NCBI RefSeq assembly: GCF_900156105.1 | Contig: NZ_FTMS01000016.1 | Location: forward strand, 1-64,000 | Direction: 5' to 3' | Length of the DNA: 64,000 nt | Source of the DNA: Alkalispirochaeta americana | GTDB taxonomy: Bacteria > Spirochaetota > Spirochaetia > DSM-27196 > Alkalispirochaetaceae | Shown: in pieces, positions 1,943 through 16,275 of the stretch | How positions within the stretch are numbered: the first letter of the stretch is position 1 | How the letters are laid out: every line of letters starts with the position of its first letter | Translations under genes and position numbers: made by a program | Notes under the pieces: generated by a model | The model's database searches: none | Told to the model about the DNA's origin: nothing | The model's input: the letters and a program-made list of their open reading frames with translations, nothing else

Positions 1943-2142
1943 CCCCAGTGGAAAGTTTCTGGGGCACACTAAAGGAGGAGTTAGTCTATCACCGTCGGTT
2001 TCGGACCCGGTTTGAGGCCCAGGCAGCTATCCAGGAATACATTGAGGTATTCTACAACCGCATGCGTCGTCATTCGGCTCTCGGAAACCTCGCTCCGGCG
2101 ATCTTCGCCGAAAACTATTTCTCAGAAAGGAGATCCGCATAG
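1943..2142 (+). CDS. IS3-family transposase OrfB, exon 2 (3' end)
   Basis: This encodes the C-terminal DDE core and tail: VESFWGTLKEEL with the catalytic Glu, then YHRRFRTR, YIEVFYNRMRRHSALG and the usual IS3 ending around LAPAIFAENY. It is in frame with exon 1 only after intron removal. The stop TAG is at 2140-2142, about 27 nt before the putative IS end. Confidence 0.88.
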
Positions 2143-2169
2143 ATCAAGCGGTCGTGTCCACTATTGACA

Positions 2170-2349
2170 GTACAGGCCAGGGTTACTCGGAAAGCTCCTA
2201 TGGAGGTCTTCGTACTCTCTATACTCTTGATACCATCTGTCAAGATTCTGCCGGGACGGATAACCCAACTCCCGAATGGTTGCCGCCGCTGATAGATCAT
2301 ACTGGATGTAGAGCTTCACCGCTCTCATTCTCTCTTCATACGAATACAC
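2170..2349 (-). pseudogene. Truncated IS3/IS150-type OrfA (helix-turn-helix) of a second IS
   Basis: About 58 residues of an IS OrfA start at MYSYEERMRAVKLYIQ with the helix-turn-helix LSAAATIRELGYPSRQNLDRW. GGAGGTAG lies upstream of the ATG. The coding sequence is cut at about 2170, where the end of the first IS begins; the last residues before the stop come from that junction. The C-terminal half of OrfA and all of OrfB are missing, so this is an IS remnant. Confidence 0.75.
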
Positions 2350-2424
2350 GGACTACCTCCTTCAGAATCTAGTCCAAGTTTTTGTCCGCACCCCCAGGCT
2401 CCAAACTACAACGGTGTCAACGAT
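2350..2424. repeat. Probable terminal region of the second, truncated IS
   Basis: This short stretch between the orfA start and the surE stop contains tccaagtttttgtccgcac and cccaggctcc, which look like an IS terminal repeat just upstream of an IS150-type orfA. The matching end is gone, so the boundary cannot be fixed. No gene is seen here. Confidence 0.4.
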
Positions 2425-3300
2425 TCAGACTTGAAGTACCCGCTGAGCCTCGATCATTGATGCGGTGCAATCGATGGTAAGCGGAGTCACCGCGATAACC
2501 CGGTCAACGGCGACCGCATAGCCGTCGTCGGCGGGGTCAAGCGAATGTGCGTCGGCTGCGATGTAGGTTCGGGATTCGCCGAGTCGCGTTCGGGACGAAG
2601 GCTTTTCGATGTGAAATCCGAGATAGCGGCTCATTGAAAGCCTGGTAAGCCGCTCCGGAGTTTCGTTCGGGCAGGGGTCGGGAATATCTACTTTGAGCAC
2701 GTCGAACGGACGGCGCCCGGGAGGTTGAGCAGCTAGGGATGGAGCAAGATCGAGGATTTTCCGAATCCATCGCTCAGCGACCCGGATGGTTTCACTCCAG
2801 TCGAGGTGGCCGTGGAAAAAGTGATTTTCAACGCCGGTCTGGCGCGACAGTGCGAGCGCAGGAATTCCCTGGGCGGCAGCCTGAAAGGCGGCGCCGAGCG
2901 TGCCCGACCCTCCGATATCCGTGCCGATGTTTTCCCCGTAGTTAATCCCGGAAACGACAAGGTCGGGTGTGCGACCATCACAGAGTACGGTTAGGGCGTG
3001 CTGACACACAAGCGCCGGACTGGCATCGATATGCCATGCGGTAAGCCGTCTGTTATCCGTGTTCGTTTCGGGAATCTCATACGGATGAAAATGATCGCGC
3101 TCGTTTCCGTTCATGCTTCTGCCGCGCGCAGTCTGCTGGTTTGTGGGTGCGGCGACGATAACCTCGCCGGCTCCATTCGCTCCCTTTGCGGCCGCAACGG
3201 CAGCTTCGGCTACCGCATGCAGACCAGGCGATTCTATTCCGTCATCATTGGTGACAAGTATCAGGGGCCGGCGTCCGGCCCTGTTTGCATTTTCGCTCAT
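2425..3300 (-). CDS. surE: 5'/3'-nucleotidase SurE
   Basis: A metal-dependent nucleotidase of 291 residues, expected to hydrolyse nucleoside 5'- or 3'-monophosphates in the cytoplasm. The N-terminal metal site ILVTNDDGI is present. The conserved SGINYGENIG loop and the GTLGAAFQAA segment follow. The ATG at 3300 (MSENAN) is preferred over one 18 nt upstream because GGAGAACC directly precedes it. The gene lies downstream of the phn-type transporter genes on the same strand, with a 143-nt gap containing a 7-bp hairpin. A C-terminal part of about 60 residues is more divergent. Confidence 0.92.
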   Translation of the reverse strand: MSENANRAGRRPLILVTNDDGIESPGLHAVAEAAVAAAKGANGAGEVIVAAPTNQQTARGRSMNGNERDHFHPYEIPETNTDNRRLTAWHIDASPALVCQHALTVLCDGRTPDLVVSGINYGENIGTDIGGSGTLGAAFQAAAQGIPALALSRQTGVENHFFHGHLDWSETIRVAERWIRKILDLAPSLAAQPPGRRPFDVLKVDIPDPCPNETPERLTRLSMSRYLGFHIEKPSSRTRLGESRTYIAADAHSLDPADDGYAVAVDRVIAVTPLTIDCTASMIEAQRVLQV

Positions 3301-3341
3301 GGTTCTCCATTTTCCCATAAAAAGTGTGACCGTTGTCGGGT

Positions 3342-3359
3342 AGCGGCCAGCGGGCCGCT
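3342..3359 (-). other. Intergenic hairpin between phnE and surE
   Basis: An inverted repeat agcggcc/ggccgct with a 4-nt loop. There is no U-tract immediately after it on the minus strand, so it is more likely an mRNA stability or attenuation element than a clean terminator. Confidence 0.4.
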
Positions 3360-3443
3360 GTTCACAAGATCTGCCAACGCGCGCTGTTTATCACTATACA
3401 TATGTAGGCGTAGGAGCCCGTGCCGCGATCATTAGCGCCACCG

Positions 3444-4217
3444 TCAAATTATCCGCTTGCGGATATAGGCGCTCGTATAGTCGATTGCGGTTACGGCAAC
3501 AATAACCGCGAGAAGCGACATTCCCACGACAGGCCAGCGGCGGAACTGCAGGCTCTGGAGAAGAATGACACCAATTCCGCCGGCGCCGACAAGTCCGAGC
3601 ACCGTGGCATTGCGCAGGTTAAGCTCGAATCTGTACAGCGCAGTGGCTACAAACTCGGGAAGCACCTGCGGGAAAACGGCGTAAAGGAAAATCTCTGCAC
3701 CGTTTGCACCGCTCGACTGCAGCGCCTCAATTGGCCCCCGGTCGATATTCTCGACGATCTCCGAATTGAGTTTTCCGAGCATGCCTATAGAGTTCAGACC
3801 AATTGCCATGACCCCGGCCAGCGCTCCGGGACCGTAAGACGCGACAAAGAAAATTCCGAGGATGAGCTCTGGGAAGGTCCGTATCGCGTTGAGGATCTGC
3901 TTTGATATCCAGACGACAACGCCGGGTACACCAACGTTGTTGGCTGCAAGAAAGCTGATCGGAAACGTGAGTATCGCAGCGACGGTTGTTCCCATTATGG
4001 CAATCTGAATACTTTCAAGCATCGCGAGCGATGATTGAACGAGAAAGCTTGTATCCGGAGGGATCATCGCGGCCACGATCCGGCCGATAGTCGGTATGCC
4101 GGTTCGGATACGTTCGAGATTAATATTCATTCCGTCGGCAGCCCAAAGCAGGACCACCGCGAGAACGACAAGATTCCCGATAATTCGAATTTTTCTGGAA
4201 ACGGATTGATCGCTCAT
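3444..4217 (-). CDS. phnE: PhnE-type ABC transporter permease (second permease)
   Basis: An integral membrane permease of 257 residues for a phosphonate/phosphite/phosphate-ester importer. It has about five to six hydrophobic segments. Family hallmarks are FLAANN near residue 90, RTFPELILG, the cytoplasmic coupling loop (GPIEALQSSGANGAE) and ATVLGLVGAGGIG. Its ATG overlaps the stop of the upstream permease by 4 nt (ATGA), so the two are translationally coupled. It is about the same size as its neighbour and pairs with it, as in systems with two PhnE proteins. Confidence 0.9.
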   Translation of the reverse strand: MSDQSVSRKIRIIGNLVVLAVVLLWAADGMNINLERIRTGIPTIGRIVAAMIPPDTSFLVQSSLAMLESIQIAIMGTTVAAILTFPISFLAANNVGVPGVVVWISKQILNAIRTFPELILGIFFVASYGPGALAGVMAIGLNSIGMLGKLNSEIVENIDRGPIEALQSSGANGAEIFLYAVFPQVLPEFVATALYRFELNLRNATVLGLVGAGGIGVILLQSLQFRRWPVVGMSLLAVIVAVTAIDYTSAYIRKRII

Positions 4218-5017
4218 GTCAGCCTCTCCCGCATTCGGGTGCTCGTGTAATCAATGATCATAACGAACACAAACGTAATAAGTATTGTGGTCGCTGCATT
4301 TGCATAGCGAAACAGGTCGAGTGATGTCCTGAGCAATACACCGACTCCTCCTGCTCCTACAAGCCCGAGCACGGTTGACGCACGAATATTAATCTCGAAG
4401 ACATACAGGGTATAGCTTGCGTAGAACGAGAGCATCTGCGGAACAACGGCGAAGCGTATTACCTCCAGTTTGTTCGCACCGACCGCCTGCAGGGCTTCGA
4501 TGGGACCGTGATCAATGGCTTCAAGGCTTTCGCTCGCAAGTTTCGCAATGACAGCCGTTGAAAATATGGTCAGCGCGAGCATACCTGAAAATGCGCCGAG
4601 CCCTATGCCTGCGACCAGTATTGAGGCGTACAAAAGCTCAGGTATCGTACGAATGAAGTTCATGAACCCTTTCGCAAGGAAATAGAGAGGAGTATTTGTG
4701 TTGATGTTGTTCGCCGAAAACAGCGTAAGGGGAAAGGCTAAAATGCTTCCGACAAGGGTTGCGAGAACGGCAATCTGAACTGTCTCGAGAAGCGCGGGAA
4801 ACACCCGGGCTGTGTATCCCCAGTTCGGCGGAATCATTTCCCCGAGCAGGGAAAAAAACTGGGGCAACTCCCGGATAATCTCAAAGAGATTAAAACCGAT
4901 TCCGCGGGCGGCCCAGATGTATATTGCGGCGATCGCTGTGATCGCACCCGCCTTCTTGAGTTTCCCCTTCCAGAGAATAACCGGAGGGTTAGTCGTATGA
5001 CTAGAAACTTGCGGCAT
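4214..5017 (-). CDS. phnE: PhnE-type ABC transporter permease (first permease)
   Basis: A 267-residue membrane permease, paralogue of the following gene. It carries FSANNINTN, RTIPELLYASI, the coupling loop DHGPIEALQAVGANK and ASTVLGLVGAGGVG. The start overlaps the last 17 nt of phnC, and the stop overlaps the next permease start, giving a tight phnC-phnE-phnE order. Confidence 0.9.
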   Translation of the reverse strand: MPQVSSHTTNPPVILWKGKLKKAGAITAIAAIYIWAARGIGFNLFEIIRELPQFFSLLGEMIPPNWGYTARVFPALLETVQIAVLATLVGSILAFPLTLFSANNINTNTPLYFLAKGFMNFIRTIPELLYASILVAGIGLGAFSGMLALTIFSTAVIAKLASESLEAIDHGPIEALQAVGANKLEVIRFAVVPQMLSFYASYTLYVFEINIRASTVLGLVGAGGVGVLLRTSLDLFRYANAATTILITFVFVMIIDYTSTRMRERLT

Positions 5018-5789
5018 CTGAGTCCTCTCCTATCACGTCGTCATCGGTAATGGGACGTCCGTAGATCTCTTCAAACACATCGCTGGTCGCTTCACTCGTC
5101 GACCCGTCGAACACAAGCTCGCCATCGCGCAGGCCGATTATCCGATCGGCATACTCCAGCGCCATATCGATAAAGTGCAGATTCACCAGTGTCGTAATGT
5201 TGTCTTCACGGTTTATGCGCTTGAGATCGCGCATAACCGCATGGGACGTCGGAGGATCAAGCGACGCTACCGGTTCATCCGCCAGAATGATTTTCGGCTT
5301 TTGTGCCAGCGCCCGCGCAATACCGACGCGTTGCTGTTGTCCCCCCGACAAAGCATCGGCGCGAACAGCTGCCTTTTCGGGAATTCCCACGCGTTGCAGA
5401 CAGTCTAGCGCGATTTCCCTATCTGCTTTGGGGAACAGGCCTAACAGAGTTCGCCAGGTCGGTACATAACTGACACGCCCGGCCAGAACGTTTCGAAGTA
5501 CCGGTGATCGTTTTACCAGATTGAAGTTCTGGAAGATCATACCGACTTCACGACGAAGACGCTTCAAGGCGGTGCCGTTGGCACCGGTTATATCCTTGCC
5601 GTCGATATAAACCTTCCCGTCGGTTGGAGTTACAAGTCGGTTCACGCAGCGTAGCATGGTCGATTTGCCGGCACCACTGAGACCGACGACAACAACGAAC
5701 TCGCCCGGGTTAATGGTTATATTGAAATTCTTCAGTGCCTTCACTGAACCAGCAGCGTAGGTTACCGTGACATTTTCTAAAGTAACGAT
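5001..5789 (-). CDS. phnC: PhnC-type ABC transporter ATP-binding protein, apparent ATC start
   Basis: The ATPase of the importer. Walker A is GLSGAGKSTMLRC, the signature is LSGGQQQRVGIARAL, and Walker B is IILADEPVASLDP. The first ordinary start codon (GTG at 5744) would delete the first beta-strand. The in-frame upstream sequence encodes VTLENVTVTYAAGSVKAL, which is the normal PhnC N-terminus. An in-frame TGA lies at 5804-5802, and no ATG, GTG or TTG occurs between it and 5744. An ATC at 5789 has GAGGG nine nt upstream and gives 262 residues, the usual PhnC length. Initiation at ATC (or ATA at 5798) is inferred; a sequence error or a weak truncated protein are the alternatives. Confidence 0.85.
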   Translation of the reverse strand: MVTLENVTVTYAAGSVKALKNFNITINPGEFVVVVGLSGAGKSTMLRCVNRLVTPTDGKVYIDGKDITGANGTALKRLRREVGMIFQNFNLVKRSPVLRNVLAGRVSYVPTWRTLLGLFPKADREIALDCLQRVGIPEKAAVRADALSGGQQQRVGIARALAQKPKIILADEPVASLDPPTSHAVMRDLKRINREDNITTLVNLHFIDMALEYADRIIGLRDGELVFDGSTSEATSDVFEEIYGRPITDDDVIGEDSDAASF

Positions 5790-5895
5790 GGCAGCTATCC
5801 CTCAGTAATATTCTGATTCGGTACGAATCCCGGCCGCACCGACCACCACAGGCAACATCACCTTTGGCAGTCGGCGTACAACGAAAGTGGAAGCA

Positions 5896-5924
5896 CACGG
5901 AGAAGCGACATGTCGATCTCCGTG
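5896..5924 (-). other. Hairpin in the phnD-phnC intergenic region
   Basis: The outer stem is cacggaga/tctccgtg (5896-5903 with 5917-5924). It encloses a second self-complementary core, cgacatgtcg (5906-5915). It sits in the 163-nt gap between the binding-protein gene and phnC and has no U-tract. Such hairpins commonly protect binding-protein mRNA and lower downstream expression; that role here is inferred. Confidence 0.5.
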
Positions 5925-5952
5925 CCTCACTTCAAAGGTTTCCCGTAAATCT

Positions 5953-6837
5953 CTAGAAGTCGATGAACTCTTCCATCTCTGCGAATGTCTGGCGGACAAT
6001 GTTGTAGCGCTCGCTGTCGGCAGGGACAAATCCGGAGACGTTATAAAGGGTATTAAGAAGTTCCCGGCCTTCATCTGTTTCGCCGACCGCGACGAATGCG
6101 TTTTGAATTGCCCTTTTGAGTTCATCGGAAAGCCCCGGGCGTACCGCCACGCCGTCGTTAGGAATCGCTTCAGTGCGCGCGAGTATTTTCGTTTCCTCCA
6201 TGATGGTGGGGAACTCCACTACCAATTCTTTGCGAACATCTTCGAAACTGACTGCGACATCGACCTCACCAGTCATAACTGCGCTTACCGCTCCATCATG
6301 TGCGCCGGCGAAAAAATATTCGGCGAAATCCGTTTCCGGATCAATTCCGTTGTTCAGCAGGTCAACATACGGGAATAGATAACCGGATGCCGATGCCGGG
6401 TCGACAAAGGCCATGGTCCTTCCGTGCAGGTCCTCGAAATCTTCGATTCCGCTGTCTTTGCGGACCACGTACTGAGCGAAGTATTCGGACTCACCACGGC
6501 GAATGGAGTTCAGTATAATTTCGAGGCCATGCCGTTCTTCACCGAGAACAAGTGCAAATGGTCCAAAAATTCCAATATCCACGCGGCCGGTTCCCATTGC
6601 TTCAATGACACCGGTGAAGCTGGTTAATATGGTTCCTTCCACAGGCATGCCCAACTCTCCGGACAGCAGATCGGTCAGCGGATTAATCGATTGGATCATT
6701 CGCCCGACTTCCCGTGAGGGAACCATTCCAAGAACGAGACTTTCCGGATCTTCCTCCGACGCTTCCTGCTGGCCACCGCCGAATACCAGTGCGGCGGATG
6801 CGAGAAGCACGAGCACAAACAGTAATGCTTTTTTCAT
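5953..6837 (-). CDS. phnD: PhnD-type periplasmic phosphate/phosphite/phosphonate-binding protein
   Basis: The substrate-binding protein of the importer, 294 residues. The ATG at 6837 is chosen because AAGGAGA lies just upstream; an in-frame start 42 nt earlier lacks one. A signal peptide (MKKALLFVLVLLASAALVFG) leads into GGQQEA, with no lipobox cysteine, as is common in spirochaete binding proteins. The family signature FVDPASASGYLFP is present, with GPFALVLG and a C-terminal FAEMEEF. The substrate cannot be told from sequence; phosphonate, phosphite and phosphate esters are possible. Confidence 0.9.
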   Translation of the reverse strand: MKKALLFVLVLLASAALVFGGGQQEASEEDPESLVLGMVPSREVGRMIQSINPLTDLLSGELGMPVEGTILTSFTGVIEAMGTGRVDIGIFGPFALVLGEERHGLEIILNSIRRGESEYFAQYVVRKDSGIEDFEDLHGRTMAFVDPASASGYLFPYVDLLNNGIDPETDFAEYFFAGAHDGAVSAVMTGEVDVAVSFEDVRKELVVEFPTIMEETKILARTEAIPNDGVAVRPGLSDELKRAIQNAFVAVGETDEGRELLNTLYNVSGFVPADSERYNIVRQTFAEMEEFIDF

Positions 6838-6885
6838 GACAATCTCCTTTTTCTCGCCGGCAAGCGGCGAACGTGACATTAAGTA

Positions 6886-6914
6886 AGCGTACGCGGGTAT
6901 TCAGCACCTGTCAA
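6886..6914 (-). promoter_or_regulatory. Sigma70-type promoter of the phnD operon
   Basis: On the minus strand TTGACA (6914-6909), a 17-nt spacer and TACGCT (6891-6886). Transcription should begin near 6879, giving a leader of about 40 nt with a good Shine-Dalgarno before phnD. Confidence 0.7.
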
Positions 6915-6951
6915 CAAAAAGTTACGCAATTTCCAATATAGTTTACTTATT

Positions 6952-7000
6952 TTTACCATATTGCCGCCCAAAACCGGTAAATGGTAAACAATAACCGGTT
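6952..7000. promoter_or_regulatory. Candidate operator for the divergent RpiR-type regulator
   Basis: Two nested symmetric signals lie between the phnD and rpiR promoters. Tttaccat (6952-6959) and atggtaaa (6981-6988) form an 8-bp inverted repeat. The palindrome ACCGGT occurs twice (6973-6978 and 6994-6999), 21 bp apart, which puts both on the same helix face. That is the expected architecture for a dimeric or tetrameric regulator controlling both genes. Confidence 0.55.
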
Positions 7001-7014
7001 GTAAATTACTTTTC

Positions 7015-7043
7015 TTGACGATTTGCGAAAAAGACGGTACACT
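7015..7043 (+). promoter_or_regulatory. Sigma70-type promoter of rpiR, leaderless geometry
   Basis: TTGACG (7015-7020), a 17-nt spacer and TACACT (7038-7043). The ATG is at 7053, only 9 nt after the -10 box, so the mRNA should have a leader of 0-3 nt. No Shine-Dalgarno is possible. Confidence 0.7.
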
Positions 7044-7052
7044 GCGGTTGTT

Positions 7053-7907
7053 ATGGCAGACAAATTCGGGTGGGGTAAACGAGTATCGAAATTGGCCGGT
7101 CGTCTGACCGAAACCGAGACACGCGTCCTGGAGTATGTTACCGAGAGTCCCCACGAGGCAGCGTTCATGTCTCTGAAGGACCTCTGCGAACGCACCGGGG
7201 TGAGCAAACCCAAGATTATTCAGCTGTATCGCAAACTCGGATACGAGCGGTACAAAGAGTTCCGAAATGGGGTTGAAGAGTTCTACGCGCATCACATAAA
7301 CGCGTACCGGGCCTCCAAGGCGACGTTCAAGGATATTCGATCGTTCGACCAGCTTGTGACCACGTCAATCGAGGAGGAGGCAAAGGCGCTACAGCGGCAG
7401 CTCGAGCACGTGCCGACCGACGACGTAGAGCAGCTTGCTCGGTCAATGCTCAACAAACGTAGAATCTATATCCTCGGAACAAGCACCGGTATGTATCCAG
7501 CACACTATCTCTTTCAACGACTGAAACGCTACAAACTCGACGTACGCATTCTCGGCGAGGATTCTCAACATATTGTCGAAGATGCATTTGGCATCAACGA
7601 GGATGATATGCTTCTTGTATTCCACTACTTTCCAGACCGGCGCCGCACCCACGGCGCGATGAAGCTCGCGCATGACTGTGGCGCTCTGGTCGTCGTAGCC
7701 ACGGACACAATGCTTATTGAACTGACCGAAATGGCGGACCAGGTGTACTTCGTGGCAAGGGGAAGCATTCGCTTGCACAGTTCCATGGCTGTCCCAATGC
7801 ATTTTGTAAATCTTGTAATGCTTGCAATCGAGTGGCTCGGAGGCGAGACGTTTCAGCAGTATCTGCTCGACATTGAGAAGCTCCGAGAGCGCTACGACCT
7901 CGGATGA
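7053..7907 (+). CDS. MurR/RpiR family transcriptional regulator
   Basis: A cytoplasmic DNA-binding regulator of 284 residues. The N-terminal RpiR-type helix-turn-helix is at about residues 15-75, with the recognition region ERTGVSKPKIIQLYRKLG. The C-terminal SIS (sugar isomerase) domain is at about 110-260, with ILGTSTGMYPAHYLFQRL and LLVFHYFP. SIS domains usually bind phosphosugars, hinting that the co-regulated transporter handles a phosphorylated organic compound. It is divergent from the phn operon, with palindromic candidate operators between them. An upstream TTG at 7023 overlaps the promoter spacer, so the ATG at 7053 is preferred. Confidence 0.85.
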   Translation: MADKFGWGKRVSKLAGRLTETETRVLEYVTESPHEAAFMSLKDLCERTGVSKPKIIQLYRKLGYERYKEFRNGVEEFYAHHINAYRASKATFKDIRSFDQLVTTSIEEEAKALQRQLEHVPTDDVEQLARSMLNKRRIYILGTSTGMYPAHYLFQRLKRYKLDVRILGEDSQHIVEDAFGINEDDMLLVFHYFPDRRRTHGAMKLAHDCGALVVVATDTMLIELTEMADQVYFVARGSIRLHSSMAVPMHFVNLVMLAIEWLGGETFQQYLLDIEKLRERYDLG

Positions 7908-8398: not shown

Positions 8399-8443
8399 TT
8401 GCGCGACCAGCCATCGCGTGGATTCTATCGTGGGAGGTTTCTC

Positions 8444-8525
8444 GTGAAGTTGCGTTCCATTGACCAGGCGGCCGAATACCTTGGGCTCAGCAAATCAACC
8501 TTATACAAGAAAACCAGTGTTGAGG
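8444..8525 (+). pseudogene. Truncated excisionase-type helix-turn-helix protein
   Basis: A GTG start with GGGAGG upstream encodes VKLRSIDQAAEYLGLSKSTLY, the start of a MerR/excisionase-type DNA-binding domain. After about 27 residues it runs into unrelated sequence and a different frame of the following pseudogene. The break at about 8520 looks like a deletion join. Confidence 0.6.
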
Positions 8526-9329
8526 CCCGCACAGGGATGGCATGGCGGACGAACTGGCGGCCATGGCGAATACGGCATCGGGCATTATTGTTCTGAGGGT
8601 TGGCGACAAGACCAGGGATATTCTGGGGATACCGGCGGAGAAACTTGACATAGTTGAAGGCTGGCTTCGTTCCATTTGTAACGACTCGATTGATCCTCCC
8701 CTGGATTGCGTCATACGCGAACTCATTGTGCCCGATCAACAGAGTGATGAGAAAATTATCCTGCGAATCGACGTGCCCCGCAGTCTGTTTGTCCACAAAA
8801 GCCCCAATGGCTATTTCCATCGCATAGGAAGTTCCTGGCGCGAGATAAAACCGGATGGTTTGGCGCGGTGATTTCAGCAACGCAGTCAGGTGCGACTCAT
8901 TGCTTCGACGGACGGCGCAGACAGTTCCTGCCACATCTATGATGCCCCCCTGCGGGCAACTGTCAACTGGATGTCAAGGACATCACTCGCCCGCTTGATG
9001 TCCAGGTTCGGGACGCCTGCAAGTTCGTGGAGAGAAACATGCGGGTTTTTGCCATCAAAGCGCCCAATCGGATCGAAAGGCCCCAGTTTTCCATGAATGC
9101 GGTGTTCGAGGCGGTGGTCAATGCTGTCGCCCTTTCCATGGCCCATCGGGATTACTCCATTTACGGTTCCAGGATTCGCCTGCATCTGTTGTCTGATCGG
9201 CTGGAAATCTTCTCACCCGGTGCGATCTCCAACTCCATGACCATTGAGAGCATTTCAGAACGGCAATCGGCATGGAACGAATTAATCAGCTCCTTGCTGG
9301 CTCGTTGCCCGATAAATGGAGACGATTAA
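8526..9329 (+). pseudogene. Broken AlbA_2/RecG-like ATP-binding protein gene
   Basis: Frame fragments belong to an AlbA_2 (Schlafen-like) plus HATPase protein. The N-terminal part, MADELAAMANTASGIIVLRVGD and SPNGYFHRIGSSWREI, runs to about 8870. YDAPLRA lies near 8940 in a second frame. After another shift, RPLDVQVRDACKFVERNMRV, FEAVVNAVALSMAHRDY and RLEIFSPGAISN follow to 9329. At least two frameshifts and a missing start show decay. Such proteins often belong to defence or mobile-element cargo. Confidence 0.7.
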
Positions 9330-9410: not shown

Positions 9411-10505
9411 CTAATCCAGCCACCGGGCCGTGCGGGAATCCAGGTTGGTCAGTCCCAGGTCCCGGGCATGGTCCACCACAGCCTGATATTCTCCGGGGTC
9501 GATCCGGCGGGCGATCCGGGGAAAATTGAAGGCCTGGTGGTGGGGCGAATACTGTTCCATAATGTTGATGTAGGTATCGGAGGGCAGGTTTTCTGCTATC
9601 CAGTCCAGGACCTCCCGGGAGCCGCTGGCGCTGTCGGGCATCACCAGATGGCGTATCATGAGGCCCCGGTTGATGATCCCTCCGGAGTCTGGCCGGGCAA
9701 CCCCTACCTGGCGGTGCATCTCAAGAACAGCTGCCCGGGTATCCTCGGGGTAGCTTGGAGTGGCTGTGTACTCTCCGGCCTCGGCGCTGGCGGCAAACTT
9801 GATATCGGGCAGATAGATATCCACCACGCCATCAAGAAGGCGAAGAACCTCAACCCGCTCCCAGCCGCTGGTGTTCCAGACCAGGGGGATACGCAGGCCC
9901 TGACCGGCCGCGATATCCAGGGCAGCCACGATGTGAGGTGAATAGTGGGTTGGGGTGACCACATTGATATTATGAGATCCCAGTTCCTGGAGACTCAGCA
10001 TCGCTGCGGCAAGATCGTTGATCGATACGGCCGTTCCCCGCCCCTGGATGCTGATTTGGTAGTTCTGGCAGAAGACGCACCGCAGGTTGCAGTGGCTAAA
10101 GAAGAGCGTTCCCGAGCCGCCGCGCCCGACCAGCGGCCGTTCCTCGCCAAAATGGGGCTGGATCGCGGCCAGGATCAGCCGATATCCGGGGGCCCGGCAA
10201 TAGCCTCGTTCTCCAGCCAGACGATTGACGCCGCAGGAGCGCGGACAGAGCGTGCAGGACTCCATCATTTGCCAGAGTTCGCCTGCGCGCCGGGCCAGCT
10301 CGCCGCTCTTGTGAAGCTCCACGTAGGAGGGTACAAAGTCACTTTCCCGAGAGATCGGCGTGCTGCCACTCCGCCCGTCGGTTCGAGGCAGATCGGGCTT
10401 TTCTCCGGAGCCCGCGCCATAGCTGATTCGTGTGGAGAGACCAACCATCAAAAAGACCGAAAGAAGACCAAGCGCCGTGGCGGTCCTGAATATGGACATC
10501 TTCAT
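9411..10505 (-). CDS. PflA-like radical SAM protein with N-terminal signal-like segment
   Basis: A radical SAM enzyme of 364 residues. The SAM [4Fe-4S] motif is CNLRCVFC (CX3CX2C). A second cysteine cluster precedes it (CTLCPRSCGVNR ... GYC), as in the PflA-like COG1313 group. Downstream are WNTSGWE, DIYLPDIKF and YSPHH. The first about 30 residues form a typical Sec-like signal (basic start, hydrophobic core, SYGA end) without twin arginines. That is odd for an oxygen-sensitive Fe-S enzyme, which should stay cytoplasmic. It is the last gene of a three-gene operon, 36 nt after the spermidine-synthase-like gene. The substrate is unknown. Confidence 0.8.
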   Translation of the reverse strand: MKMSIFRTATALGLLSVFLMVGLSTRISYGAGSGEKPDLPRTDGRSGSTPISRESDFVPSYVELHKSGELARRAGELWQMMESCTLCPRSCGVNRLAGERGYCRAPGYRLILAAIQPHFGEERPLVGRGGSGTLFFSHCNLRCVFCQNYQISIQGRGTAVSINDLAAAMLSLQELGSHNINVVTPTHYSPHIVAALDIAAGQGLRIPLVWNTSGWERVEVLRLLDGVVDIYLPDIKFAASAEAGEYTATPSYPEDTRAAVLEMHRQVGVARPDSGGIINRGLMIRHLVMPDSASGSREVLDWIAENLPSDTYINIMEQYSPHHQAFNFPRIARRIDPGEYQAVVDHARDLGLTNLDSRTARWLD

Positions 10506-10541
10506 TGTCTGTTCCTGCCCTGCGTATCGGATCGTGTCACT

Positions 10542-12956
10542 TCAAGTGTAGTTAATACGCCAGGGGCTTCGCAAGAGCAGAACCAGAAGTGTTCCTGATT
10601 TCAGCAACCCCAGAGTGATTCCTGCGCCGGTCAGTCCCAGCAGTGGCAGCAGCAGAACACCCCCCAGAATGCCTCCGATACAGCCTCCGGCAAGATCGGC
10701 TCCGTAGACCAGCCCCGCCGTAGATGCAGGAGCAGGCGATCCTCCCCGGGAGCCCTTCTCCAGAAGGGCCTCGCAGGCTATGGGGAACTGCCTCCCGCAG
10801 ACCATCCCTGCCGCCGGAAGAATCAGCAGAAAAGCCCCCCGAAGGAGCGCCGGGGGGACCTTCCCCGAGACAAGCGGTGCCACCAGGGGAAGCAGGATCA
10901 GGAGGAGAGAGCAGAAAAGCAGGATCGCCAGCTCGCTTCGCACAACCATGCCCCAGATTCGCGGCGATTCGTATCCCAGTCGGTCTTCTCGTCCCGGGCG
11001 GCCGAGGCGGTGTCTGGTCACGAGGGCGCCCACACCAAGGCCGGAAATAAAAGCTGCCGAGAGTAGTCCCAGCCAGCCGAAGAGGCGGCCCGCCAGGACC
11101 TCGAACGAGAAGAGAAGCGCGAGGTTTACCACCATGGCGGAAAACCCTGTGGTTATCACCGAGGGGACAATGAAGGTTCGGGGCCGGGGGCTCAGGCGGT
11201 TCAAGGCGGATGCTGGCAACAGAAGGATCAGGATTGTCCCCAGGACGATCAGGGCAGGGTGGAGTCCGTAGATCCTTTCCAGGAGGCGGCCTGTGAGGGG
11301 CGCGTTGAGCCTGCTCCAGTGGGCGATGCTCAGGAGAAGTACCCGGGGCTGAAATTCCCTGTTGATTCGGGACCTCCCCGGGGCAGCGAACTCCTCGAAC
11401 CAGTGGTGCCAGCGGGGATGCAGGCGCTGTTCCATGTACCAGGGAATAACCCCGGCCGAGAGCAACCCCCGCTCTCGAAGGTGATCGGTGAAGATCTGGT
11501 GGTCCAGATGGATGATGGCAGGATCTTGCGACGCCAGCAGGAAGGACTGCCCCTCGCCGGGGAAGGCGCGAAGCCAGGGAAAGTTCTGGCGAAGGGTGTG
11601 GATCAGACTGGCGCTCATCTCCTGGAGCGGTTCTGTCAGGTGCCCCACCAACCCGGGAAAGCCCAGCACCAGAATTCCCTGTTCCGTCAGGTTTTGTGCC
11701 GCCAGTTCCAGGAACTCCTGGCTGAAGTAACGGGCATTGTGCAGGTTCGAGGGGTCGCTGGTTCGGCTGATGATCAGATCGTAGGATGTGGCCGATTCCT
11801 GAAGCAGTGCCCGGGCGTCCCGCGCCCGGAGATGTATCCTGGGATCATCGATCCATGTCTCCCCGGTGAGGGCCGCAACCTCGCGTTGCAGTTCCAGGAG
11901 CCTGGGGTCCAGTTCGGTATACTCCACCAGGGTCAGGGAGGGGTGATGCAGAAGCTCTTCCAGAACTCCACTTGCTCCTCCGCCGATAAGAAGAACCCGT
12001 TTTGGCCGGGGATGAGCTGTCATGGCGATATGGACCAGGGGTTCCACCAGGGTCATGTCGGGGATCGGCTGGATGAAGGCCGGGGTGCCATCGGTGAAGA
12101 AGGTATATTGTCCCTGGTTCTCGGTGATGGCGATGTTGCCCTTCAGGGTGTTTTCGTAATGCAGAATATTCTGGTCCTGCCAGAGCCGCCGGATCGAGCG
12201 ATGCTGCAGATACTCTGCTCCGCCCGTCCCGAGAAGCAGGGCCGCCCCGGCCGCCAGAATGAGGGCGCCCGCGAAGGCTCCCGGGGCCGGGGTCTGGTTC
12301 TCTTCCGGAAGGGTTTCCGGTGGTGAACCCGGGAATTTTGCGATCAGAATGATCACCGTCACGGACTGAAGCAGAATAATACCTGCCACGATCTGGAATG
12401 ACCCTGCCCGGGGAACCAGGAGCCACGTCCAGAGAAGCCCCGCCAGGAAGGTTCCTGCAGTTTCCAGAATGTAGATCGAGGCCATGGGGAGGGTAGCCGG
12501 GGATTGAGGGAATCCCGAGCGCTCCCGGGAGGCTATCGCGCAACCCCACGTGAAGAGTGCGCCGTGGGTGAAGCTCACGGGCAGGAGGACAAGAAAGGTG
12601 CTCGCCGCGGCCGTGGCAAGGCCTGGTACGGTCCCCACGGAAAGACCCAGGAGGGGTTTGATCAGGCGAACTCCCCAGAGAGCCGGAACAAGGGTGATGC
12701 AGAAGGCAAGACTGGTCATGCTGTACCGGGATATTCCACAACTCCCTGCGAGCCGCGCCCGGCCACGGGCCCAAAAGGAACCGGCCGCTTCCAGGGCCAG
12801 CCAGTTCGCCAGGATGATTCCGATGGTCAGCTCGTTCCCGGCAAACACCACAAGCAGTTCCCGCAGGAGCACCATCTGGGCCAGAAGACCGCTGGCGCCC
12901 GTGGCTGCTGCGGCCCAAAGAAGGCGTCCCCTGATCCGGTCCTTGGGAAGAATCAC
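10542..12956 (-). CDS. Membrane protein with embedded spermidine-synthase-like domain
   Basis: A protein of 804 residues. N-terminal membrane helices occupy about residues 10-250, and a Rossmann-type spermidine synthase-like domain about 270-500. That domain has RVLLIGGGASGVLEELL, the acidic nucleoside-binding strand LVEYTELDP, RDARALL and YDLIISRTSDP. A second set of about seven membrane helices follows to the C-terminus. The GTG at 12956 is chosen because it overlaps the upstream stop (GTGA) and has GGAG seven nt upstream. The aminopropyltransferase family uses decarboxylated SAM, but fused membrane forms have no assigned reaction. Partners are the SafE-like and radical SAM proteins. Confidence 0.8.
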   Translation of the reverse strand: MILPKDRIRGRLLWAAAATGASGLLAQMVLLRELLVVFAGNELTIGIILANWLALEAAGSFWARGRARLAGSCGISRYSMTSLAFCITLVPALWGVRLIKPLLGLSVGTVPGLATAAASTFLVLLPVSFTHGALFTWGCAIASRERSGFPQSPATLPMASIYILETAGTFLAGLLWTWLLVPRAGSFQIVAGIILLQSVTVIILIAKFPGSPPETLPEENQTPAPGAFAGALILAAGAALLLGTGGAEYLQHRSIRRLWQDQNILHYENTLKGNIAITENQGQYTFFTDGTPAFIQPIPDMTLVEPLVHIAMTAHPRPKRVLLIGGGASGVLEELLHHPSLTLVEYTELDPRLLELQREVAALTGETWIDDPRIHLRARDARALLQESATSYDLIISRTSDPSNLHNARYFSQEFLELAAQNLTEQGILVLGFPGLVGHLTEPLQEMSASLIHTLRQNFPWLRAFPGEGQSFLLASQDPAIIHLDHQIFTDHLRERGLLSAGVIPWYMEQRLHPRWHHWFEEFAAPGRSRINREFQPRVLLLSIAHWSRLNAPLTGRLLERIYGLHPALIVLGTILILLLPASALNRLSPRPRTFIVPSVITTGFSAMVVNLALLFSFEVLAGRLFGWLGLLSAAFISGLGVGALVTRHRLGRPGREDRLGYESPRIWGMVVRSELAILLFCSLLLILLPLVAPLVSGKVPPALLRGAFLLILPAAGMVCGRQFPIACEALLEKGSRGGSPAPASTAGLVYGADLAGGCIGGILGGVLLLPLLGLTGAGITLGLLKSGTLLVLLLRSPWRINYT

Positions 12957-13558
12957 AGTCCCGCTCCTGCAAGGAGGAAAAAAGACCAGAGGAAGAGCAC
13001 CGATGCTCCTGCTACCCGCAGGATAATCCGGGTTTGGGGTTTTCCGGTCAGGCGCCTCCACAAGGAAGGGGCTATCCCGCAGACCAGGAGGGCCGGACCC
13101 GTGGCGGTGCCAAGTCCAAAGAAGAAGCCCCCGGCCATTCCCAGAAGAGGGCTGCCGCCCCGGGTGGCCAGGTAGAGAAGAAACCCCGAGGTGGCAGCGC
13201 AGGGTACGGCTCCGTCCACCAGTCCCAGCATGAAGGGTGATCCTCTTCGGGCAAGGCACCCGCAGTGTCCGCTGTAGAGGAGAAACCAGATTCCCGTGAT
13301 CGCCACAATCATGCCTGCAGCAAAGGTGACCCACCGGTGATGAAAGATGTCATAGACCAGAAATCCCATGAGAACGGCCAGGCCGCCGTAGACGGTGAGG
13401 GCGATTGTTTTGCCCAGGCTGAAGAGGAGAGCTGTGCGAACTCCTCCGCGCCAGGTGCTGTGAAGGTGCGCCGCCAGGGGCGCCAGCAGGAGAGAGCAGT
13501 GGAGGCTGCATATTCCCAACCCCAGGATCAGTCCCGACAGATATGAAGACCAGAGCAC
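12953..13558 (-). CDS. CcdA/DsbD-like (SafE/UreH-type) membrane protein
   Basis: An integral membrane protein of 201 residues with about six helices. The N-terminal helix carries paired cysteines ([13 protein letters not shown]), and a further pair lies in SGHCGC. Helix 4 has VPCAATSG. This arrangement resembles the COG2836/DsbD-type thiol-electron or metal-related transporters. The GTG start is 6 nt after a -10 box, suggesting a leaderless message. It is the first gene of the operon with the spermidine-synthase-like and radical SAM proteins. Confidence 0.75.
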
Positions 13559-13564
13559 CTGCGA

Positions 13565-13593
13565 ATTTTACACTCTTTCGGGGAAGTCCTCAA
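13565..13593 (-). promoter_or_regulatory. Sigma70-type promoter of the safE-like operon, leaderless geometry
   Basis: On the minus strand TTGAGG (13593-13588), 17 nt, then TAAAAT (13570-13565). The GTG start codon at 13558 follows after six nt. No Shine-Dalgarno is present. Confidence 0.6.
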
Positions 13594-13641
13594 GAAATCC
13601 CGGGAATCCTCTCCCCGGGACCCGATACGAACCTTGGCGAT

Positions 13642-13671
13642 TTGCCCTTTCATGAGTTCTGTTGTTATTAT
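13642..13671 (+). promoter_or_regulatory. Probable promoter of the superoxide dismutase gene
   Basis: TTGCCC (13642-13647), an 18-nt spacer and TATTAT (13666-13671). A leader of about 60 nt precedes a strong AAGGAGG Shine-Dalgarno. Confidence 0.5.
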
Positions 13672-13738
13672 TTTGAGAGAGCCCGCCCGTAGGGGCGGCG
13701 CAGTACAGGACGCAAGCGAACCAATCAAGGAGGCACAA

Positions 13739-14347
13739 ATGGCTTTTGAAACACCGGCGTTGCCCTACGCCTACAACGCACTGGAACCCCATATCGATGA
13801 GATGACCATGAAAATTCATCACGACAAGCACCACGTGGCGTATACCACCAAACTGAACGCGGCCGTGGAGGGCACAGACTATGCCTCCTGGAGCGCCGAG
13901 GATCTGGTAACCCGTCTCGGAGAGCTTCCCGAGAACATTCGTGGCGCTGTCCGGAATAACGGCGGCGGTCATGTAAACCACAATCTTTTCTGGACAGTTC
14001 TCGCTCCCGGGGCAGGTGGCGCGCCCTCCGGAGCCGTGGCCGGGGCGATCACCGAGGCCTTTGGCAGTTTTGAGGCCTTCCGGGAGAAGTTTGCCAACGC
14101 TGCGGCCACACGCTTTGGGAGCGGCTGGGCCTGGCTGGTAGTGAACGCAGCGGGAGCGCTTGAGGTTACAAGCACCCCGAACCAGGACAGCCCCCTCACG
14201 GAGGGCAAGACCCCCATCCTGGGGCTCGATGTCTGGGAGCACGCCTACTACCTCACGTATCAGAACCGTCGGCCCGATTATATCGAGGCCTTTTTCAACG
14301 TGGTCAACTGGGACCAGGTAGAGAAAAACTACCAGGCTGCACGCTAA
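13739..14347 (+). CDS. sodA: Fe/Mn superoxide dismutase
   Basis: Cytoplasmic superoxide dismutase of 202 residues. Metal-ligand regions are visible: H in [16 protein letters not shown] in HVNHNLFW, and [13 protein letters not shown] with the Asp and His ligands. The ATG at 13739 follows AAGGAGG; an ORF extension upstream is rejected. The length is normal. Fe versus Mn use cannot be decided by eye. It is a single gene with its own promoter and terminator. Confidence 0.96.
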
Positions 14348-14376
14348 CGTTCCGAAAGAAGCTCCCGATTTTTCCG

Positions 14377-14406
14377 TCCCCGGCCTTTCGCCGGGGATCT
14401 TTTTTC
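14377..14406 (+). terminator. Rho-independent terminator after sodA
   Basis: Stem ccccggc/gccgggg with a 5-nt loop, followed by a run of six T in atctttttt. It lies 30 nt after the sodA stop. Confidence 0.85.
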
Positions 14407-14429
14407 CCCGGGAGGTATCGCGGCCTTCG

Positions 14430-14459
14430 TTGTCGTGCTTCCCGCGAAACAGGTATACT
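14430..14459 (+). promoter_or_regulatory. Sigma70-type promoter of sufS, leaderless geometry
   Basis: TTGTCG (14430-14435), 18 nt, TATACT (14454-14459). The ATG at 14467 follows after seven nt, so the predicted start site coincides with the start codon. Confidence 0.65.
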
Positions 14460-14466
14460 AAGAGCC

Positions 14467-15702
14467 ATGACATCCACACTGGACATACAATCGATCAGAG
14501 AAGATTTCCCCGCCCTGGCCACGACCATGCGGGGCAAGGACCTGATCTATTTTGATAATGGAGCCACCTCCCTGAAGCCCCGGCCTGTTCTTGAGGCCCT
14601 CCAGGGATACTACGGGGACTATAGCGCCAACATTCATCGTGGCGTCTACGAGATGAGTGAGCGTGCAACCGCTGCCTACGACAACGCCCGGGAAACGATT
14701 CGCCGTTTCCTGGGGGTCTCGCCGGAGCAGGGTGAGGTCATTTTCACCAGGGGCACCACGGAATCGATCAATCTGGTAGCCTATTCCTGGGCCGTGAAGT
14801 TCCTCAAGCCTGGCGACGAGATACTGCTCACAGCCATGGAGCATCACTCCAACATTGTTCCCTGGCAGTACGTGGCGCAGCGGACGGGTGCGGTCCTGCG
14901 CTATATCCCCATGACTCCCGAGGGGGCTTTCACCGATGAGGCCCTCTGCGGGGCTTTGGGGCCTCGGGTTCGGCTCGTGGCAATCACGGCCATGTCCAAC
15001 GTGACCGGGTATATGCCTTCCCTGGAGGGTCTTGTTGCCCGGGCTCGCCATCAGGGAGCGCGGGTTCTGGTGGACGGAGCCCAGTACGCCTGCCACCACG
15101 CCGTGAACGTCACCGCTTTGGACTGCGATTTCTTCGCCTTCTCGGGGCATAAAATGTGTGGCCCCACAGGAATCGGGGTGCTCTACGCAAAGCGGGAGCT
15201 CCTGGAAGAGATGGACCCCTTTCATTACGGGGGCGACATGATCCAGGAGGTGACTCTGGAAGGCTCCACCTGGGCACACCTGCCGGAGAAGTTCGAGGCA
15301 GGGACTCCTCACATCGCCGGTGCCGTGGGGATGGCCGCAGCGGCCGAGTATCTTCTGGAGATCGGTCTCGAGGAGATCGCCGCCCACGAAGGGGATCTCC
15401 TCCGGTATGTCACGGAGGCAACCGAAAGGCTTTCGTACCTGCGCCCCTTTGGCCCCGCCGCTCTCGAACGCCGGGGCGGGATTTTCTCCTTCGCTCTGGA
15501 AGGAGTCCACCCTCACGACGTAGGGAGCCTGCTGGACCAGCAGGGAATCGCCGTCAGAACAGGATTTCACTGTGCCCAGCCCCTGATGGCCCATTTTGGG
15601 GTGGTGGGAACGGTGCGGGCATCGTTCTATCTCTATAACACCAGGGAGGAGATCGATCGCTTTGTGGCCGCCCTGGAACGGCTCTACGGAATCCTGGGAT
15701 AA
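14467..15702 (+). CDS. sufS: Cysteine desulfurase SufS
   Basis: A PLP enzyme of 411 residues that takes sulfur from cysteine for Fe-S cluster assembly. The PLP lysine is in FSGHKMCGPTGIG, and the catalytic cysteine in RTGFHCAQPLM. The start region FPALATTMRGKDLIYFDNGA is typical of group II (SufS) enzymes. SufU follows after 3 nt. No Shine-Dalgarno is present, and the start codon sits at the expected transcription start. Confidence 0.96.
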   Translation: MTSTLDIQSIREDFPALATTMRGKDLIYFDNGATSLKPRPVLEALQGYYGDYSANIHRGVYEMSERATAAYDNARETIRRFLGVSPEQGEVIFTRGTTESINLVAYSWAVKFLKPGDEILLTAMEHHSNIVPWQYVAQRTGAVLRYIPMTPEGAFTDEALCGALGPRVRLVAITAMSNVTGYMPSLEGLVARARHQGARVLVDGAQYACHHAVNVTALDCDFFAFSGHKMCGPTGIGVLYAKRELLEEMDPFHYGGDMIQEVTLEGSTWAHLPEKFEAGTPHIAGAVGMAAAAEYLLEIGLEEIAAHEGDLLRYVTEATERLSYLRPFGPAALERRGGIFSFALEGVHPHDVGSLLDQQGIAVRTGFHCAQPLMAHFGVVGTVRASFYLYNTREEIDRFVAALERLYGILG

Positions 15703-15705
15703 GAT

Positions 15706-16275
15706 ATGAGCGGTCGTGCAGGGGATAAAACCTGGGAAGAACTCCTGCTGGAGCTGGTCAGGCGCTATTATACCCCCGGGGGGCCGGCAGGGGCTGCCCC
15801 GAAGGTCCCGCCAGACCCGGGGTATCCCGAAGCAGTCACGGAGATCACCGTGACAAACCGCAGCTGCGGTGATTCTGTTACCGTTTGCCGTGGCCCGGGA
15901 GGGCAGGGGGGCTGTGGAGTTCAGGGCCTTCGCATTGTGGCCCGGGGGTGCGCGGTATGCAAGGCTTCAGCGGCCCTGGCTGAATCGACGGCGGCACTCC
16001 TGTCGGTTCAGGAGATTGTATCGCTCTGCCGGGAGATGATCGCCCGAATCACAGCAGCCAGGGAGCAGGAGAGCGTCGCGTTGCCCGGCGCTCTGTCCTG
16101 CACTCTGCCCGAAGATATTCTGCGGGATCTTGAACTTCTGGAGCTTGTGAAGAACGCCCCGGGGCGTCGGCGGTGCGCAACCCTGAGCTGGGAGGCTCTC
16201 GCCGAGGCCTTCGCGGAGAGGGAATCCTCCGATTGCGTTGACACCAGCCAAGTCATTCGATACTCTGAGATCTAA
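15706..16275 (+). CDS. sufU: SufU-type Fe-S scaffold/sulfur-transfer protein
   Basis: A 189-residue IscU/SufU-fold protein, partner of SufS. Conserved ligands are visible in NRSCGDSVTV (first Cys and Asp), GCAVCKASA (second Cys) and RRRCATLSW (third Cys). The SufU-specific C-terminal end is present. A Gly/Pro-rich insertion near residues 25-40 is unusual. It is transcribed with sufS. Confidence 0.9.
   Translation: MSGRAGDKTWEELLLELVRRYYTPGGPAGAAPKVPPDPGYPEAVTEITVTNRSCGDSVTVCRGPGGQGGCGVQGLRIVARGCAVCKASAALAESTAALLSVQEIVSLCREMIARITAAREQESVALPGALSCTLPEDILRDLELLELVKNAPGRRRCATLSWEALAEAFAERESSDCVDTSQVIRYSEI
16238..16266 (+). promoter_or_regulatory. Sigma70-type promoter of gpmA inside the sufU 3' end
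   Basis: TTGACA (16238-16243), a 17-nt spacer and TACTCT (16261-16266). The leader to gpmA is about 24 nt and includes GAGGGAG. Confidence 0.65.

Follow-up and report, generated by a model that had tools for sequence, protein, structure and literature searches.

A spirochaete operon pairing a spermidine-synthase-like membrane protein with a predicted exported radical SAM protein, and its possible role in SAM chemistry outside the cytoplasm

A three-gene operon that may carry out S-adenosylmethionine (SAM) chemistry at the cell envelope was analyzed in a 64,000-nucleotide stretch of the Alkalispirochaeta americana genome (the window; positions 1 to 64,000 of the forward strand of contig NZ_FTMS01000016.1, NCBI RefSeq assembly GCF_900156105.1). 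All three genes lie on the minus strand and are, in the order of transcription, P0001 (13558-12953, GTG start), which encodes a DsbD_2/CcdA-like protein with six transmembrane (TM) segments; P0002 (12956-10542, GTG start), which encodes an 804-residue protein, here called MSpd, with seven TM segments, a spermidine-synthase-like domain and another seven TM segments; and P0003 (10505-9411, ATG start), which encodes a radical SAM (rSAM) protein. A previous sequence-only reading of this locus had described an overlap of 4 nt between the first two genes and a gap of 36 nt before the third. The coordinates confirm both, with GTGA as the overlap and a spacing of exactly 36 nt.

The tripartite architecture of P0002 is seen in its AlphaFold2 model (pLDDT 89.8, pTM 0.92). 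Based on alignment and this model, the N-terminal TM block comprises residues 6-244 (12225..12941, minus strand); the C-terminal block, delimited by hhalign and the model, comprises residues 567-795 (10572..11258, minus strand). The two blocks are homologous to each other (hhalign probability 97.7, E 2.4e-12) and appear to be an internal duplication. Between them lies the spermidine-synthase-like domain (residues 259-530; 11367..12182, minus strand), which matches Spermine_synth PF01564 (E 2.1e-21, residues 305-431) and, in a Foldseek comparison, the structure 1uir (E 3.8e-12). These two matches and the conserved residues described below identify a Rossmann-like SpeE fold with SAM-binding residues. 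Over 71 MSpd sequences, the charges of the loops alternate, such that the inner loops are net positive and the domain falls outside; the middle domain is predicted to be extracytoplasmic. In addition, residues R32, E33, N41, E42, W52, R97 and E165, located within the first TM block or adjacent to it and in several cases towards the outer side, are invariant. Assignment of the TM blocks to a known transporter family was tried and rejected, as P0002 and the eight family members scanned gave no such Pfam match, and the 50 Foldseek matches listed for P0002 are all spermidine synthases or related aminopropyltransferases.

Does the middle domain make polyamines? The sequence-only reading had taken it for a domain of the decarboxylated SAM (dcSAM) type set between two blocks of helices, of which the flanking by two TM blocks holds and the dcSAM assignment does not. 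A membrane-bound polyamine synthase that uses dcSAM would be in keeping with the PF01564 match, the SpeE-like fold and the partial matches of P0002 to polyamine aminopropyltransferase models, which stay far below cut-off. However, the catalytic Asp of spermidine synthases (IIVDssDP) is absent in 71/71 MSpd sequences, with Gly in 59, Arg in seven, Asn in four and Val in one at position 398. Likewise, a GGGASG motif (residues 325-330; 11967..11984, minus strand; from the alignment) replaces the GGG(D/E)GG of spermidine synthases. None of the 71 has the acidic residue of GxG(D/E)G, and position 328 is Ala in 65 of them. The SAM-site residues G326, G327, G330, E348, D350 and D380 are kept. Moreover, the 95.6%-complete A. 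americana genome has no PF02675 match for a SAM decarboxylase, versus a match in eight of 14 control genomes, and no second SpeE was detected in it. Because the catalytic Asp is missing throughout and no SAM decarboxylase is detectable, the dcSAM assignment fails, and polyamine synthesis is ruled out as extremely improbable. P0002 also falls short of the fused MFS/spermidine synthase model NF037959 (35.1 bits against a cut-off of 40), which it matches over the domain part only.

The genomic context of MSpd was compared over many phyla. A P0002 profile run against bacterial and archaeal genomes gave 372 relatives, of which the best 80, the most similar to the query, were kept as loci. The pairing counts rest on the 64 MSpd loci that are not cut short, each flanked by at least 1.3 kb, and an rSAM gene was counted as a neighbor if it lies within 600 bp of MSpd. 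Such a neighbor is present in 54/64 loci and belongs to one of two families: a P0003-type rSAM in 28 paired loci, in every case immediately downstream of MSpd in the same orientation, and an AmmeMemoRadiSam-type rSAM in 26, mostly directly upstream. Among the hosts of MSpd are Spirochaetota, Balneolota, Ignavibacteriota, Nitrospirota, Thermodesulfobacteriota, Chloroflexota, Bacteroidota, Lentisphaerota, as well as several candidate phyla. In a tree built from 71 MSpd proteins, the family of the partner rSAM switches once among the labelled rows. A single MSpd gene is often accompanied by two or three exported rSAM paralogues, both in Bacteroidales and in others; in five Bacteroidales loci (L069, L073, L075, L095 and L103), two or three tandem AmmeMemo-type paralogues with twin-arginine translocation (Tat) signals precede a single MSpd gene. 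Clustering of open reading frames (ORFs) within 6 kb of the MSpd loci revealed no further universal neighbor; the sporadic ones are ABC ATPases and, in six loci, a nitroreductase.

The full trio is found in the same order in Alkalispirochaeta alkalica (L045), the nearest named relative of P0002 at 72% identity, and in four metagenome-assembled genomes of Spirochaetaceae/Spirochaetales (L043, L044, L046 and L047). It also occurs in the same-order genome L030 and in two Lentisphaeria (L056 and L062), and in L070 the contig is cut and carries genes 1 and 2. Recurrence of the gene families together, on which the sequence-only reading had staked its proposal, is thus observed: the trio is not unique, and genes 2 and 3 occur together far more widely. 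That the genes are adjacent by accident or through a passing genome rearrangement might be argued from the restriction of the CcdA-like gene to a few lineages and from six fully flanked MSpd loci that have no rSAM gene nearby. For genes 2 and 3, this explanation is contradicted by the pairing in 54 of 64 loci over many phyla and by the single change of partner on the MSpd tree, and we give it practically no weight. The trio as a whole was rejected as the functional core, as the CcdA-like DsbD_2 gene is limited to spirochaetes and Lentisphaeria and is accessory there. Similarly, Memo-AMMECR1 was rejected as an obligatory partner; it is seen only in some spirochaetes and in L114. The gene neighborhoods instead point to the pair of MSpd and rSAM as the core.

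Among more distant MSpd proteins, the rate of pairing may be lower than in the best 80 loci. Two spirochaete loci (L037, 3931-6168; L038, 8755-10914) encode distant MSpd-like proteins that have no rSAM neighbor and are flanked on one side by a gene for DNA polymerase III alpha and on the other by one for a phosphodiesterase, and these could form a separate branch with another role. In L047, a second, distant MSpd-like ORF (2038-4719, 27% identity to P0002) is located about 0.7 kb upstream of the trio.

P0003 matches Radical_SAM PF04055 (E 4e-8, over cut-off). Its CX3CX2C cluster motif (Cys139, Cys143 and Cys146; 10068..10091, minus strand) is intact, invariant in 25/25 MSpd-adjacent P0003-type proteins and also present in A4. 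The best Foldseek match of its AlphaFold2 model (pLDDT 80.7) is the pyruvate formate-lyase (PFL)-activating enzyme 3c8f, and the CX3CX2C motif and 3c8f-like partial TIM-barrel fold place the protein in the radical SAM superfamily. The intact motifs suggest that P0003 is catalytically competent. A second motif that is invariant in the family, Cx2Cx3Cx11C (Cys84, Cys87, Cys91 and Cys103; 10197..10256, minus strand), is a possible second metal site. Within the phylum, 96/149 genomes carry P0003-like genes.

Residues 1-31 of P0003 (10413..10505, minus strand) form, by inspection, a Sec-type export signal or anchor, at a position where relatives from genomes with TatC have Tat signals. With signal classes assigned by motif and inspection rather than by a trained predictor, every MSpd-adjacent rSAM with a readable N-terminus bears a Tat, Sec, lipoprotein or anchor signal (L118, a C-terminal fragment only, is outside this count). 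In contrast, 46 of 48 non-adjacent P0003 relatives from the same phylum have no leader and start just before the enzyme domain (Fisher p ~1e-19 for the difference). In a second phylum, 11 of the 29 best P0003-type proteins bear a leader, and all 11 of their genomes have MSpd, four of them adjacent to the rSAM gene, compared with 49/118 genomes overall (p=3e-5). The type of signal also follows the secretion machinery, in that TatC is present in 32/35 genomes with Tat-type leaders versus 5/19 with other leaders (p=1.7e-6); the A. americana genome and G130 have no TatC and a Sec-type leader on the rSAM. Incomplete assemblies, of which there are many among these genomes, would explain some of the misses. 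Because the leader tracks adjacency to MSpd and the signal type tracks TatC, the N-terminus of P0003 appears to behave as a real export signal, and the Sec-like leader noticed in the sequence-only reading is upheld.

The leaders could instead be mere membrane anchors, with the rSAM enzymes on the cytoplasmic side and the MSpd domain inside. Uncleaved anchors, by inspection, in L061, L071 and L122 would fit such an arrangement, as would the unusual nature of Sec export for an iron-sulfur enzyme, which export would entail in A. americana. However, most genomes carry Tat motifs that match the presence of TatC, the anchors with positive N-termini point outward, and the charge profile of the 71 MSpd proteins puts the domain outside. 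An anchoring function alone is therefore considered improbable.

For P0001, the CcdA-like identity proposed earlier is sustained by a match to DsbD_2 PF13386 (E 7e-11, over cut-off), six TM segments and paired Cys residues. The Cys residues in TM1 (CxxxC) and the PC in TM4 are kept in all homologues found in the alignment, as expected of a thiol conduit, and a role in electron transfer would be consistent with this pattern. A distant P0001-like DsbD_2 gene (30% identity) is located at 13868-14530 of L122, near a Chloroflexota MSpd locus.

Taken together, these features suggest, with about an even chance in our estimation, that the operon performs SAM chemistry on the outer face of the cytoplasmic membrane and that MSpd supplies or docks the SAM. 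P0003 would be exported and act outside as a radical SAM enzyme, and MSpd would bring or hold SAM for it, or return spent products. In spirochaetes and Lentisphaeria, P0001 would probably maintain the exported enzyme, or its cysteines, in the reduced state by carrying electrons across the membrane. The target may be an envelope lipid, glycan or protein. Of these elements, the conserved unit, the export of the rSAM and the loss of the spermidine-synthase residues rest on comparison, the outward position of the MSpd domain is computed, and the supply of SAM is inferred. A supply or docking function of MSpd is preferred because one MSpd is often found beside two or three exported rSAM paralogues and beside two rSAM families, and such sharing is as expected of a service part rather than of a fixed pathway enzyme. 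The stronger version, in which many phyla run radical SAM catalysis outside the cytoplasm and the exported rSAMs receive SAM from across the membrane through MSpd as their dedicated transporter or dock, is put forward only tentatively.

The chief competing explanation takes MSpd for a SAM-dependent methyltransferase, or a related transferase, that faces outward and carries out a second step on the same envelope substrate as the rSAM. A precedent is found in the fungal N-terminal histidine methyltransferase NHMT, a 7-TM protein of the secretory pathway with a spermidine-synthase-like domain that is without the acidic residue and methylates proteins there (PMC10349129); MSpd is without the same acid and keeps its SAM site. 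A fixed second step fits less well with an MSpd that is common to several rSAM paralogues and two rSAM families, and the doubling of the TM block, with its invariant charged residues, suggests a role beyond anchoring. A transferase function is thus possible but somewhat doubtful.

Several observations weigh against SAM supply to an exported rSAM. DsbD-type thiol conduits usually do not have a potential low enough to reduce an rSAM cluster, and no extracytoplasmic SAM pool has been shown. The TM blocks of P0002 and the eight members scanned have, as described above, no Pfam match to transporter families, and the six fully flanked loci have MSpd and no nearby rSAM. Finally, a Tat-signal P0003 relative is found away from MSpd in G003, even though this genome has MSpd, and another occurs in G050, a genome that gave no MSpd match at E<=1e-20.

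Upstream of P0001, a promoter scan identified a promoter-like site, TTGAGG-17-TAAAAT (13565..13593, minus strand), about 7 nt before the GTG start. The sequence-only reading had set the span of the operon at 9411-13593; the gene positions stand, and the outer edge at position 13593 belongs to the -35-like element rather than to the first codon of P0001. A. alkalica retains both this site and the GTG start, and L046 has the same arrangement. Because the site is only ~7 nt from the GTG and is conserved in A. alkalica, the P0001 transcript is probably leaderless. Divergent from the operon, at 13634-16275 on the plus strand of the window, lie genes that by inspection encode a superoxide dismutase, a SufS-like cysteine desulfurase and a SufU-like scaffold and relate to oxidative stress and to iron-sulfur assembly. 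In A. alkalica (L045), the neighboring superoxide dismutase gene is retained. Downstream of the operon, also by inspection, 3444-7907 holds phosphonate-type ABC transporter genes (two permeases, an ATPase and a binding protein) accompanied by a divergent RpiR-like regulator. The stretch 8425-9329 (plus strand) holds broken pieces that resemble an AlbA/ATP-binding (Schlafen-type) regulator and are probably a decayed gene.

To our knowledge, the radical SAM enzymes characterized so far are cytoplasmic, with ready access to SAM and low-potential electrons. An rSAM exported by Tat or Sec, depending on the genome, next to a protein with an outward SAM site raises the questions of how SAM and electrons cross the membrane and which envelope molecule is modified. 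Among openly licensed papers, no exported radical SAM enzyme and no link between MSpd and radical SAM was found, and an earlier description elsewhere is possible. Within this scope, the system appears categorically new: the domain families are known, and their combination and compartment are not described. The proposal of an undescribed membrane-associated SAM-dependent system is thus largely borne out by the conserved unit, the literature and the export signal, with the exception of the dcSAM domain and of the CcdA-like gene as part of the core.

Among the closest known systems are the 7-TM spermidine-synthase-like proteins encoded in PspA/DUF350 operons (PMC11237479) and the PRK03612-type aminopropyltransferases, in which, as in MSpd, a 7-TM block at the N-terminus is joined to a spermidine-synthase domain. 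The PRK03612 model matches residues 12-430 of P0002 with 140.8 bits, far below its cut-off of 472. For the PspA/DUF350-type proteins, no second TM block is described, and their partners are PspA, DUF350 and CesT rather than radical SAM proteins; the term 'radical SAM' is absent from the text of PMC11237479. NHMT, which is likewise a multi-TM protein with a spermidine-synthase-like domain without the acidic residue, differs from MSpd in having seven TM segments at one end rather than 7+7, in having no radical SAM partner and in being eukaryotic. P0001 resembles the CcdA/DsbD_2 thiol conduits (PF13386) in its six TM segments and in the Cys residues of TM1 and TM4 and differs from them by its link to the MSpd-radical SAM pair. 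P0003, which by inspection is related to the COG1313/PflX group, shares with the PFL-activating-enzyme-like rSAMs the CX3CX2C motif and 3c8f as nearest solved fold; unlike their common copies, which have no export signal (46/48), the operon copy has one. Finally, the MSpd-adjacent rSAM in many phyla is TIGR04337 of the AmmeMemoRadiSam system (TIGR04335-04337, NCBIfam; function unknown), as five of five AmmeMemo-type proteins scanned against NCBIfam exceed the cut-off of this model (E ~1e-100 or lower). P0003 and its operon are not members (16.5 bits against a TIGR04337 cut-off of 220), and the Memo genes of A. americana lie only elsewhere in its genome. The MSpd-linked enzymes differ from the described system by their export signals and their pairing with MSpd, which would give this uncharacterized rSAM family a compartment and a partner. 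In three spirochaete loci (L032, 7648-13181; L039, 6623-11492; L040, 9242-14436), MSpd and an AmmeMemoRadiSam enzyme with a Tat signal are accompanied by a Memo-AMMECR1 fusion that bears a hydrophobic segment at its N-terminus; these loci seem to encode the AmmeMemoRadiSam system in an exported form.

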